DNA from: Bdellovibrio sp. 22V
Lineage (GTDB): Bacteria; Bdellovibrionota; Bdellovibrionia; Bdellovibrionales; Bdellovibrionaceae
NCBI RefSeq assembly: GCF_030169785.1
Contig: NZ_CP125854.1
Location: 1,116,001 to 1,180,000, forward strand
DNA: 64,000 bases
Direction of reading: 5' to 3'
Part shown: positions 40,632-46,068 of the stretch, one piece after another
How the letters are laid out: every line of letters starts with the position of its first letter
How positions within the stretch are numbered: position 1 is the stretch's first letter
The notes under the pieces: model-generated
Databases searched by the model: none
The model's input: the letters and a program-made list of their open reading frames with translations, nothing else
What the model was told of the DNA's origin: nothing
Position numbers and translations under genes: made by a program

Positions 40632-41777
40632 TTATGCCGCCGCTACAATCTTGTGACCACACTCGTGACAGAATTTCGCGCCCGCTTGAAGCTCGACAGA
40701 GCACGCAGGGCAGGAGGGTCCGCCAGAAGCTTTTTTCTTGGGACGTTCTTCTTTTTCATCCATGTCAACGAAACCTTTTTCGTTCCACTTTTCAATTTCA
40801 CGAAGCATCTTCCAGCTTTGGAAAATTGAGCGGAACTCTTTCACTTCAAATTGCAACAGAACGCCGGAACCGCCATTTTTTCTTTTCATGAAGACACCTT
40901 TGCCTTCAAGACGGTTGAAATGGTCGTTATTCAAGTTAATGCCGATTTCATTTTTACAGTGTTCAGAAAATTTCGCGAAATCAACACCCACAATACCAAA
41001 GCGGTCTGGTTGCTCGTTCTCGCAAAGTTTCAGAAGAGCTTCCAACATTTGCTGGCAAAGCTCGTCGACTTTAAGAAGCTCTGAACGGCCGCCTTTAAAG
41101 TAGTAATACTGATAGAACTCAAAGAAGCTTTCCACCAATGGCAGATCCAAGAAATGCACTTTCTGGATTTCATCCGGTCCATCTGGATTGTCGGGCGCTT
41201 TCCCCATTTCATAAAGAGCGAGCTTCAGCTTCACAAGAATATTAATCGCCTGTTCAATGCGCTTCGGAGATTCGCCCATCACACGTTGTGAGTATTGTTT
41301 CATCATACTCCAGTCGACGACAATACGGCCGGCTTGTGACCGATCACCCTTATGATTTGCGGTGTGGAAGACAGCCCCGAAAACTTTAGCCACCTGATCT
41401 TCCGGACAAGGTGAGGAGTCCTTTTCAAGTTTGCTCGAACGCACGTCATTGACGGCCAAACGCAAACGTTCTGCCAATGATTTGATGATCACTTTGAGCA
41501 TTTGCGGAGCGCCCTCATATTGCTGCTTCAAAGTCTCAACAGGAATTTCCAGAACTTTGGTTTCTGTCGTCGCAATGGCGGAAGTAGGGTGAGTGTTTTG
41601 CCCCAGAATCACTTGATCGCCGAGAATGTGCGAAGAGCCTAACTGAAAGAAATCAATGGTCTTCTTACCGCGGATAAGGCATTGGTTGGCGCCTCCCGTT
41701 TGGATCAGATAAACCGACGTGATCTTATCGCCATCCTTATAGATGACTTCGCCTTTTTTGAAGGTTTTAACAGACAT
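40632..41777 (-). CDS. cyclic-nucleotide-binding domain protein with C-terminal zinc ribbon
   Basis: 381 residues. Residues 1-120 form a cNMP-binding domain (FKKGEVIYKDGDKITSVYLI, LGDQVILGQ). The middle (about 130-340) is helical and unassigned. The C-terminus is a zinc ribbon: CPACSVELQAGAKFCHECGHK (354-374), with two Cys-x2-Cys knuckles. No DNA-binding helix-turn-helix of the Crp type is obvious. The gene is followed one base later by the PilZ gene. Confidence 0.8.
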   Translation of the reverse strand: MSVKTFKKGEVIYKDGDKITSVYLIQTGGANQCLIRGKKTIDFFQLGSSHILGDQVILGQNTHPTSAIATTETKVLEIPVETLKQQYEGAPQMLKVIIKSLAERLRLAVNDVRSSKLEKDSSPCPEDQVAKVFGAVFHTANHKGDRSQAGRIVVDWSMMKQYSQRVMGESPKRIEQAINILVKLKLALYEMGKAPDNPDGPDEIQKVHFLDLPLVESFFEFYQYYYFKGGRSELLKVDELCQQMLEALLKLCENEQPDRFGIVGVDFAKFSEHCKNEIGINLNNDHFNRLEGKGVFMKRKNGGSGVLLQFEVKEFRSIFQSWKMLREIEKWNEKGFVDMDEKEERPKKKASGGPSCPACSVELQAGAKFCHECGHKIVAAA

Positions 41778-41900: not shown

Positions 41901-42230
41901 ATGGATTATTTCTTTTCCCCGGCCTCACCAGAACATCAAAAGCGCGAAAAGGCGAAAGCCCGTGAATTGCGTTTGAGTCAGTGGTGGAAGCAGGAGCTAG
42001 GCAAAGGTCTGTGCTATCACTGCGGAGAGCGTTTTAAACCGGCGGAATTGACCATGGATCACCTGATTCCCATTGCACGCGGCGGGAAGTCCAATAAGAA
42101 CAACTGCGTTCCTTCATGCAAAGACTGCAATACGAAAAAAGGTTACAAGACCCGCGCGGAAATGGCTTTGGAATCGCTGTCTCAAACTGCGACAACAACA
42201 GAGCCTGATTCAAACGACGAAGAGTCTTAA
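41901..42230 (+). CDS. HNH endonuclease domain protein
   Basis: 109 residues. CYHCGERFKPAELTMDHLIPIARGG contains the zinc Cys pair and the D-H catalytic core of the HNH fold; NNCVPSCKDCNTKKG supplies the Asn, second Cys pair and final Lys/Gly. The short size and Gln/Thr-rich tail suggest a free-standing nuclease rather than a restriction enzyme. No methyltransferase or other defence gene is close. It overlaps the stop of the convergent gene by 4 nt. Confidence 0.8.
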   Translation: MDYFFSPASPEHQKREKAKARELRLSQWWKQELGKGLCYHCGERFKPAELTMDHLIPIARGGKSNKNNCVPSCKDCNTKKGYKTRAEMALESLSQTATTTEPDSNDEES

Positions 42231-42862
42231 GCTAAAGACGCCGTCGCAATCAAGATGACAGCCACATCAACGCCCTCTTTTTTGAGGGGCGAAGCCCACA
42301 AGAGTTTGTTGCGAATGGAGAGACGCTCTAAAGAATCTCTTTCTTTAATGACGTGCTCAGGATTATTCACTCGAATCGTTTTTTTCTGCGCGAAAAGCTC
42401 TGCCGCTGTTTTTTCAATGGCGGCCTGGTCGGCAGGAGTGCGTTCGTAAAGATTATACCACTTACGACAGTACAGATCTTCCAGGGTGTAGCTGCCTACC
42501 TCAAAGAAAAGCAAAGTCCGGAAAATCTGCGTTTGTAAAAAGTTGTAAAATTCAACGAGATGATTCGATTCGATTTTATCGAGAAGGTCCGGATCCACGG
42601 CGAAGCCATGCCGCTCTAACGCCTTGAGTGTGAAAAACTTTGTGTCGCGCAATGAACGGCCGTTCATCTTAACATCCAAACAAATTTGGTAATATTGCTG
42701 CAAGTCGCGAATCACTTGCAGTTTTTCATCGTCGTTTAGCAAATTAAAAAAAGGAAGTCCATGCCGAGCGTGAGGACGAATGACGATCCCTTCTTCCTCT
42801 ACAAGAGCGCAAATATTTGAAGCGTGTATACGAAAACGTTCTTCGAGAGACGTCAATGGCAT
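42227..42862 (-). CDS. hypothetical cytoplasmic protein
   Basis: 211 residues, mostly helical by composition, without signal peptide or membrane segment. The N-terminal half contains LLNDDEKLQVIRDLQQYYQICLDVKM and looks like a helical bundle; the C-terminus ends VAVILIATASLA, a hydrophobic tail. I do not recognise a family or motif. It is a single gene between the fibre-like gene and the convergent HNH gene. Confidence 0.55.
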   Translation of the reverse strand: MPLTSLEERFRIHASNICALVEEEGIVIRPHARHGLPFFNLLNDDEKLQVIRDLQQYYQICLDVKMNGRSLRDTKFFTLKALERHGFAVDPDLLDKIESNHLVEFYNFLQTQIFRTLLFFEVGSYTLEDLYCRKWYNLYERTPADQAAIEKTAAELFAQKKTIRVNNPEHVIKERDSLERLSIRNKLLWASPLKKEGVDVAVILIATASLA

Positions 42863-42920: not shown

Positions 42921-44726
42921 TTATTGACCGACACCCATCCACTTGATCGCAAAATTGAAGTTGTTGTGAGGCAAGGGACCCGTAGTATTACAAGTGGATG
43001 TCCAATTTCCCATCAAGTTGACGTACACACGAAAGCCAGTGGGAGTTGCGCTGTAGACAGAGGTCGCACCATAAGAGGCCCAGTGCGAGCCACCCGCATG
43101 AAGCGTCGTAAAATAGTTAAAGATAGAAGTAAATCCGCAGGCAGATGTGTTTACATCCAAGTACGCACCACAGTTGCCAGTGCCACCCACATCGACAGCG
43201 TAATAAACCCAGCCGGTGTTGTTGCTTGTTCCCACGCAAGAGCGCAAAGCATTTCCTGACGTGTCTTTCACGGCACCATAAAGATTTCCCGTCACCTTAG
43301 CGTCGCCTGCGACTTCCAACTTCGCAGTCGGTGCCGCGGTATTAATGCCGACATTTCCGTTTTGGTCGACACGAATTCTTTCTTGACCGTTTGTCGCGCC
43401 ATTTGGAGTTGTCACGATTCGCAGAGAAGTTCCATGACCTGTTGTGCTCCAGTTCTCCGTCGCGATGGCGTTGATACCAGGAGGTTGCGCTTGAGCTGTA
43501 AAGGCCGAGCCGTTGTATCCGTTAAAGGCATACCAACCATAAGAGTCGTTCGTTTGCAGAGCTGTCGGAGCGCTTGCTGTCCCGCGGGCCCCTCGAGTTT
43601 GAATAAGTCCTCCCGGATTGACGGAAGAATATTGTGTAGAGCTGATTCCACGGCTCGCAGTTGCTGTCGTGTCGACAACTTCCAGGGCCGTTGATGGCGC
43701 TGTCGTGCCCAAGCCGACTTCACCATTGGATTCGATCACGAAGGCGCGAGGACCGTTGTATTTAAAAGCATAGTTCCCTGTAAGACCGGTCACGCCATCA
43801 GAAGTCTCGATATTAATACCGACGTATTCAGAAACTGTTCCCGTATTTGTAGGAGTTTTGACGTTAAGGCCGCGCGCCGTCGTGACGGTACCGCCTGTAT
43901 TGCGCACGCGTGTCGACATACCATCCACTGTTGTGACGGTACCCGCGGCGCTGTTGATAAATGCATCTGCAAAAACGCCGGCACCGTATTTAAAGTTGTT
44001 GTTTGTCTGCGTGCTGGTGTTTTCTACTGAAAAATAGCCTCCATAAATTCCGTCACAACTACTATTTGAGTTGATACTGCAATCTGCCTCACCGCGAACG
44101 GCTGAAACATTGGAGCTGAATCCTCCAGGCCAGTAGTTAGCGCTGGTCTCACCATAGACACCTGCATTTTCAGAGGTTGAGAAAGGAAGACTCAAATTAG
44201 GCGCTTGCCCGCGAATAGAGGCATTGAGTGCGCCGGCGGTTGATGTTGATAAGACATCCAAACGGTAGCCTGGTGTCGCCGTGCCGATACCCACTTTACC
44301 ATCGGTGAGAATCGTCATACGTGTTGTGCCGGCTGTTTCAAACGCGAGAGTGTTGGAATCGTTTGTTCCTAAAACGGCGGCTGCAGCAAAAGAGTTTCCG
44401 CCATTGGCGAACATTCCTGAAGAAGAGTAGCTCGTGCAACCCATAATGCCTGAAGCATCAAACGTCACAAGCTGACCGACGCTGCAGTTGAATGGAATGA
44501 TGGCCGATCCGCTTGCATTTGAAACTAATAATCTATTTGCAGTCAGACCCGTTGAGCCTGTACCGCCTTTACTAACAGGAACTGCCGAAGGGAAGTTCGC
44601 AGGGTCCGCGGTGATCGTTCCGGCAGAGACAGCGATACCTGCGCCGACTTGCACAGCGCCTTTCGCCAACGTTGTTGCATCAGCAATTGAAATCACCGGT
44701 GTTGGGCCTTTTTCAACAGCCGTCAC
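42921..44726 (-). CDS. trimeric fibre-like surface protein (MAT-like), apparently lacking its N-terminus
   Basis: 601 residues in tail-fibre/adhesin style. VPVSKGGTGSTGLTANRLLVS (49-69, cited as a phage-tail-like junction) is followed by three pseudo-repeats of G-x-V-G-I/L-x-T-x-x-P-x-x-x-L-x-V (144-157, 336-350, 458-472). The Cys-containing tip domain covers about 485-601. Similar chimeric trimers form Bdellovibrio surface fibres. No signal peptide is present: the frame opens at a GTG overlapping the stop of the TPM gene, with a stop two codons upstream, and the first residues (TAVEKGPTPVISIAD) look like mid-protein sequence. Either the gene lost its 5' part or it is translated by coupling without export. 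Confidence 0.65.
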   Translation of the reverse strand: MTAVEKGPTPVISIADATTLAKGAVQVGAGIAVSAGTITADPANFPSAVPVSKGGTGSTGLTANRLLVSNASGSAIIPFNCSVGQLVTFDASGIMGCTSYSSSGMFANGGNSFAAAAVLGTNDSNTLAFETAGTTRMTILTDGKVGIGTATPGYRLDVLSTSTAGALNASIRGQAPNLSLPFSTSENAGVYGETSANYWPGGFSSNVSAVRGEADCSINSNSSCDGIYGGYFSVENTSTQTNNNFKYGAGVFADAFINSAAGTVTTVDGMSTRVRNTGGTVTTARGLNVKTPTNTGTVSEYVGINIETSDGVTGLTGNYAFKYNGPRAFVIESNGEVGLGTTAPSTALEVVDTTATASRGISSTQYSSVNPGGLIQTRGARGTASAPTALQTNDSYGWYAFNGYNGSAFTAQAQPPGINAIATENWSTTGHGTSLRIVTTPNGATNGQERIRVDQNGNVGINTAAPTAKLEVAGDAKVTGNLYGAVKDTSGNALRSCVGTSNNTGWVYYAVDVGGTGNCGAYLDVNTSACGFTSIFNYFTTLHAGGSHWASYGATSVYSATPTGFRVYVNLMGNWTSTCNTTGPLPHNNFNFAIKWMGVGQ

Positions 44727-45460
44727 CAGTTACCCGAGGCGCCGCCTCCCGAGAATCCCCCGCCACCGCCGGACCAGCCGCCACCACTACCACCGGAGCC
44801 CCAACCTCCGCCGCCGAAGGTGCCTCCGCCCCAGCCACCGCCACCACGATAGTAACGACCGCGACCGCCGCCGAAACGACCTAAGATGGAGATGATGATG
44901 AGAATAGCGATGATGACAAAGACAGGAATGTCTCCGCCGCCTTTGGAATCATTTTCTTGAAGTTGTTTTTCATCGGCGAATTCTTTATCTGCAAGACGCA
45001 GAATTTCGTGAACACCGACGACGACACCCGCGGAATATCTTTTCGCTCGGAAAAGCGGAATGACCTGATCGCTGATAATTCGTTTTGCGTAAATATCAGG
45101 AATAGCGCCTTCAAGGCCCTGCCCGACTTCGATGCGCATTGCACGCTCTTGCGCCGAGATCAAAAATAAAACACCGTTGTCTTTCTTTTTATCCCCCAAC
45201 TGCCATTGATCCGTGATTTCAATAGAAGCCTGCTCGATTGGAATTCCCTGCAAATCGGGAACGATCAAGACCTGAACTTGCGCTACCCCGCGACGATTGA
45301 AATCGTAAAGAAGCTGCATCAATTCTTGACGGTCATTGCGAGTGAGAAATCCCACCTCATCAATCACGGGACCTGACAAAGGAGGCGGATCAAATTTGGC
45401 CCAAGCAGAAAAACTCAGGCCGAAAAAGAATAATAAAAAAGAAAGAGCGATTGCGCGCAT
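44723..45460 (-). CDS. TPM domain protein (YgcG-like)
   Basis: 245 residues. A signal peptide (about 1-22, ending SAWA) is followed by the TPM domain: VIDEVGFLTRNDRQELMQLL, RGVAQVQVLIVPDLQG and MRIEVGQGLEGAIPD. A transmembrane helix near 190-208 (IPVFVIIAILIIISIL) precedes a Gly/Trp/Ser-rich tail ending ASGNW, as in complete family members. TPM domains resemble Psb32/acid phosphatases and usually occur with LemA, as here. The ATG at 45460 was preferred over a TTG nine bases upstream. Confidence 0.85.
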   Translation of the reverse strand: MRAIALSFLLFFFGLSFSAWAKFDPPPLSGPVIDEVGFLTRNDRQELMQLLYDFNRRGVAQVQVLIVPDLQGIPIEQASIEITDQWQLGDKKKDNGVLFLISAQERAMRIEVGQGLEGAIPDIYAKRIISDQVIPLFRAKRYSAGVVVGVHEILRLADKEFADEKQLQENDSKGGGDIPVFVIIAILIIISILGRFGGGRGRYYRGGGGWGGGTFGGGGWGSGGSGGGWSGGGGGFSGGGASGNW

Positions 45461-45480
45461 CAGATTCAAATCTTCCGCGA

Positions 45481-46068
45481 CTAGAATTTAACTTCAGGCG
45501 CTTTTTCCGCCTGAGCTTTTTCTTCCGCTGTCATATCCCATTGAGGCATTTTTTCGAAATGATACATGATCGAGTTTGTCCAGCTTGTTGGAGGAACCGT
45601 CACAAGATTGTTAAACTCTTTGATCGCTTCGATATATCTTTGACGAGCAATTGTGATGCGATTTTCTGTGCCTTCAAGTTGCGCTTGAAGATCGCGGAAG
45701 TTCTGATCCGCTTTCAAATCAGGATATTTCTCCGCAACAACCATCAAGCGCCCCAAAGCTTGCGAAAGCCCGGACTGTGCTTGTTGAAACTTCGCCAATT
45801 GTTCGGGACTCACCTTCGAAGGATCAATCTGCGTCGCCGTCGCTTTTGCACGCGCCTCCGTCACTTGTGTCAAAGTCTCTTGCTCATGCTTCGCATACCC
45901 TTTAACAACATTCACAAGATTAGGAATCAAATCAGCACGACGTTTGTACTGGTTATTCACCTCAGCCAAAGCCGCCTCAGTCATATTCTTCCCTTGCGGC
46001 AAAGATTGAATTCCACATCCCGCCAAAAAAGGCATTACTAAAAGGACTACTATCATCAGGTTTTTCAT
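45481..46068 (-). CDS. LemA family lipoprotein
   Basis: 195 residues. The signal ends FLAGC, a lipobox. The body has the LemA signature: long helices with AEVNNQYKRRADLIPNLVNVVKGYAKHE near residue 36 and RFREAIKEFN-like YIEAIKEFNNLVTVPPTSW towards the end. LemA forms a helical bundle of uncertain role and is often paired with a TPM protein, encoded 20 bp downstream here. GGAGAA precedes the ATG, and a possible TATAAT box lies about 25 bp upstream of it on the minus strand. Confidence 0.88.
   Translation of the reverse strand: MKNLMIVVLLVMPFLAGCGIQSLPQGKNMTEAALAEVNNQYKRRADLIPNLVNVVKGYAKHEQETLTQVTEARAKATATQIDPSKVSPEQLAKFQQAQSGLSQALGRLMVVAEKYPDLKADQNFRDLQAQLEGTENRITIARQRYIEAIKEFNNLVTVPPTSWTNSIMYHFEKMPQWDMTAEEKAQAEKAPEVKF

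Follow-up and report, generated by a model that had tools for sequence, protein, structure and literature searches.

A headless MAT fibre reading frame beside lemA-tpm in a Bdellovibrio chromosome is probably part of an ordinary fibre gene cut at an assembly join

The window, the whole stretch of 64,000 nucleotides that was analysed (genome 1116001-1180000, from a single contig), contains a fibre ORF of 601 aa on the minus strand (42921..44726), which corresponds to the 3' part of a mosaic adhesive trimer (MAT) gene, with shaft and C-terminal tip. Its upstream neighbours, also on the minus strand, are a complete tpm gene (44723..45469; TPM domain, E 6e-34) and a complete lemA gene (45481..46068), the latter syntenic with all relatives. 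In most congeners, the operon consists of lemA, tpm and a second TPM-domain gene (window 44723-46068 for the first two). The downstream flank of the fibre is formed by a 211-aa gene (42227..42862, minus strand), an HNH-type gene (41901..42230, plus strand) and a crp-like gene of the cyclic-nucleotide-binding type (40632..41777, minus strand). The GTG start of the ORF overlaps the tpm stop, and an in-frame TAA lies two codons 5' of it (TAA CTG GTG). These features had been described in an earlier sequence-only reading and were confirmed, as was the completeness of tpm: its product ends in GNW, a form of the usual G-x-W end that is common to the relatives.

The N-terminus of the ORF, MTAVEKGPTPVISIADATT, is shaft sequence without a hydrophobic segment. 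Read directly, and with the in-frame stop two codons upstream, it holds no signal peptide. An NCBIfam model search gave no match in the window ORF for the conserved ~130-aa beta-rich MAT N-terminal domain (NF053851), a model that scores 234-244 bits on four intact relatives of the window fibre. In all 21 MATs of HD100, a ~130-aa domain directly follows the signal peptide (Caulton et al. 2024, PMC10769870). The shaft-like first residues and the missing export signal noted by the sequence-only reading are thus real. Because the signal peptide is missing, the product is not exportable as drawn; lacking a surface anchor as well, it would be located in the cytoplasm or not be made, and would be inert in this form. 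A sequencing error hiding an upstream signal peptide was ruled out: the upstream sequence is the intact tpm gene, and homology ends abruptly.

Homology of the window ORF to its paralogues begins at residue 7-8 and reaches 72% amino acid identity (E 1.5e-61). Over the tip, identity to full-length fibres is 58-64%. Judged by these alignments, the similarity to both groups is far beyond chance. MAT-type shaft repeats were recognized by matches to paralogues, relatives and PDB entries: residues 379-491 match the solved MAT fibre Bd1334, overlapping stretches match Bd2133 and Bd2439, and residues 120-201 match Bd3182. No Pfam family scored above the cut-off within the fibre ORF. The C-terminal tip (residues about 492-601; 42924..43253, minus strand) is of a non-S74 type and common to the intact fibres of four relatives. 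These last ~110 residues have 52-61% identity to the tips of five fibre ORFs from other species, four of which carry MAT_N. The tip had no sequence match in the PDB, a contig scan with the tip sequence gave no confirmed relative, and megablast against plasmids returned no match.

Fibre sequence starts at window position 44,704, in codon 8, and the preceding 22 bases of the ORF are tpm spacer. By DNA alignment, the first codons (44704..44726, minus strand) thus consist of the tpm stop overlap and this spacer, and are not fibre. This alignment, with a paralogue at 751 kb, begins at 44704 and has 97-98% identity over 145 bp. The junction between tpm spacer and fibre shaft (J3, 44703..44704, genome 1160.70 kb) has a 2-bp overlap (CA). 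Next to it lies the 16-bp word TGTTGAAAAAGGCCCA (44703..44718, minus strand), found again at genome 1206136-1206151. The word forms an end of a palindromic intergenic repeat of ~116 bp that also stands in front of a TPM-like gene at 1206 kb. That repeat spans genome 1206036-1206151, with about ten similar stretches in the genome, and one of the same type is located between prfA and prmC of the relative G021. An Rfam search of the window and two related loci found tRNAs only; the repeat near tpm accordingly matches no described RNA family.

The genus was sampled as 24 species genomes, including the source genome. Among the 23 others, one was excluded from the count of tpm neighbours, its contig ending behind tpm. 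A second TPM-domain gene ('MAWINKYLS...') follows tpm in 21 of the 22 informative genomes, the sole exception being G022. In the source genome, this gene is found at 1205362-1206024, 45 kb from tpm, beside another junction (J5, genome 1206.03 kb) and the second occurrence of the 16-bp word. Compared with G021, the tpm block and the TPM-like-gene block are swapped, as would result if a circle of 45 kb had opened up between the two.

The other side of the junction has its own native context. G021, G003, G006 and G010 each have, between a 591/595-aa gene and the HNH-type and crp-like genes, an intact fibre that carries the same tip together with a signal peptide and MAT_N; the crp-like gene lies just beyond this fibre. 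The HNH-type gene normally adjoins the crp-like gene, and the 211-aa gene is normally near it; in no relative was a crp-like gene found near tpm. On the downstream side the native context of the window fragment is therefore preserved, whereas upstream it is gone. The 595-aa gene of the source genome was found at 1.717 Mb, adjoining a fibre head that runs on into the catalytic domain of PrmC. Together, the displaced tpm neighbour and the intact same-tip fibres beside the crp-like and HNH-type genes of relatives indicate that a chromosome junction truncated the gene.

At least three non-native junction sets are present in the source chromosome (window fibre/tpm, prmC and rng). The prmC gene, a single undivided match in 23 of 23 relatives, is here divided between two chimeric ORFs that lie 969 kb from each other; in both, the PrmC part is fused in frame to fibre. 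One is a 917-aa ORF (genome 1718716-1721469, plus strand), followed by murA; its fibre part, with signal peptide and MAT_N, covers ~680 residues before the PrmC catalytic domain (J2, genome 1720.76 kb). In the reciprocal 811-aa ORF (genome 749263-751698, minus strand), the PrmC N-terminus (~66 aa, behind prfA) at 751.7 kb passes without loss of frame into the 3' half of a fibre that has an S74 tip (J1, genome 751.50 kb). The two junctions are a reciprocal pair, consistent with one 969-kb inversion. The RNase G/E gene rng is likewise split, with its N-terminal part at 876 kb (875973-876638; J6, genome 876.65 kb) and its C-terminal part at 534 kb. No undivided copy of prmC or rng was found elsewhere in the source genome.

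At the 534-kb site (J4, genome 534.03 kb), another fibre with a head but no tip (534050-536155) breaks off at the shaft point where the fibre of the 917-aa fusion also ends. It runs into homopolymer-rich sequence and then into the C-terminal part of RNase G/E. The 23-T run at this place (534029-534051, plus strand) is the only homopolymer >10 in 628 kb sampled. Either of the two headed pieces, the 1.717-Mb fusion or 534050-536155, is a candidate for the former 5' partner of the window fragment. Duplicated words were found on both sides of the cut host loci: 20 bp at prmC, 21 bp at rng and 16 bp in the tpm spacer. Genome-wide, the 20-bp word is confined to the two prmC junctions, which rules out that these arose at a word repeated elsewhere. 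In one more fibre gene (genome 987532-991240, minus strand), a frameshifting internal deletion in the shaft, at 989.7 kb, leaves two ORFs, a head of 516 aa and a tail of 766 aa.

The G+C skew of the source genome changes sign many times (100-3500 kb, sampled) and flips at J3, J5 and J4. In G001, which served as a control together with G021, G-C skew at third positions stays positive to at least 1.8 Mb and has turned negative by about 2.1 Mb. The overall skew of G021 is broadly like that of G001, with a single switch near 2 Mb in both. The many switches suggest widespread wrong joins or recent inversions.

Junctions, lost synteny, split genes, duplicated words and patchy skew are all present in the chromosome sequence itself. 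We consider it probable that the window ORF represents the rear half of an ordinary Bdellovibrio prey-recognition gene of the MAT type, cut at a non-native junction that is most likely technical. Contigs ending in near-identical fibre shafts were most likely connected in the wrong way during assembly, in which case the reads would not support the joins. The 5' part, with the signal peptide and the N-terminal anchor domain, was separated at window position 44,703/44,704, and the same junction tore the third gene from the lemA-tpm operon. Synteny is lost on both sides and single-copy genes are split, as expected of an assembly chimera. The split but undecayed housekeeping genes, the junk sequence and the patchy skew favour wrong assembly joins. 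Against an assembly error speak the single-contig assembly with an estimated completeness of 99.99%, and the fact that both prmC junctions are in frame, for which the chance expectation is about 1 of 9. In addition, the word lengths of 16, 20 and 21 bp differ, and no single k-mer size explains them. At prmC, no assembler would have been misled by a repeat, because the 20-bp word occurs nowhere else. As to artefact or REARRANGEMENT, a real recent rearrangement stays in play because the words are unequal, the one at prmC is not repetitive and the fusions are in frame.

Real junctions, to which we give a smaller but still appreciable chance, would mean several recent rearrangements, for example the 969-kb prmC/fibre inversion, with staggered breaks that were filled and rejoined. 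Fibre shafts would then be fragile partners, and the fragment a dead by-product. The geometry of J1 and J2 fits one simple inversion, the 16-21-bp duplications fit staggered breaks, the J3 overlap is just 2 bp, and the frame is kept in both prmC fusions. However, prmC and rng would then be split with no other full copy found, the sequences show no decay, the many skew switches need many recent polarity-breaking events, and the homopolymer-rich junk at J4 resembles a technical product. It is improbable that the chromosome is truly arranged in this way, with fibre shafts as recurrent partners of gene-breaking inversions with 16-21-bp duplicated ends, and with PrmC present solely as a pair of chimeras, in one of which an exported fibre head is fused to a methyltransferase domain.

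The sequence-only reading had proposed that recombination joined a headless fibre gene to lemA-tpm, possibly as a silent cassette for tip exchange. The junction does exist, but the joins were probably made during assembly, and the cassette found no backing. A headless fibre kept as tip donor for recombination with expressed fibre genes is very improbable, even though MAT fibres are modular (PMC10769870) and recombination could take place, given about 97% identity between its first 145 fibre bases and another fibre of the genome. A headless fibre follows tpm in none of the 22 other congeners with usable sequence at that place. The fragment retains its ancestral downstream neighbours (211-aa, HNH-type and crp-like genes), the gene lost at the site is the neighbour of tpm, and the same tip sits on full-length genes in relatives. 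Moreover, prmC and rng, which are unrelated to tip exchange, are cut by other junctions of the same set. Apart from the fact that similar shafts could in general recombine, nothing speaks for a tip-donor role. Least credible of all is a native, expressed short fibre protein, cytoplasmic or non-classically exported. The 601 open codons overlap the tpm stop and could be translationally coupled to tpm, but the first codons come from non-coding spacer, a different gene occupies that place in relatives, and the MAT N-terminal domain is lacking.

Reading the locus as a probable assembly or breakpoint product keeps it from being mistaken for a novel mechanism of tip switching. The number and length of fibres, as well as gene order, should be verified before they are taken from the source genome. 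Real junctions would make fibre repeats hot partners in the large rearrangements of a predatory bacterium.

In comparison with the MAT fibres of Bdellovibrio bacteriovorus, the shaft and pre-tip repeats of the window ORF match 8OML/8ON4 (Bd1334), 8OND (Bd2133), 8OL4 (Bd2439) and 8OJN (Bd3182), and its non-S74 tip is also carried by full-length MAT genes of relatives. It differs from them in lacking the signal peptide and the ~130-aa N-terminal domain, being only the 3' part of a gene. The lemA-tpm operon has both its complete genes in the usual order, whereas its usual third gene, for the second protein with a TPM domain, lies 45 kb away. Chimeric assembly joins at repetitive genes are resembled in the several splits with near-identical shaft-repeat partners, the junk sequence and the patchy skew; unusual for such joins, the prmC and rng breaks are not themselves in repeats.
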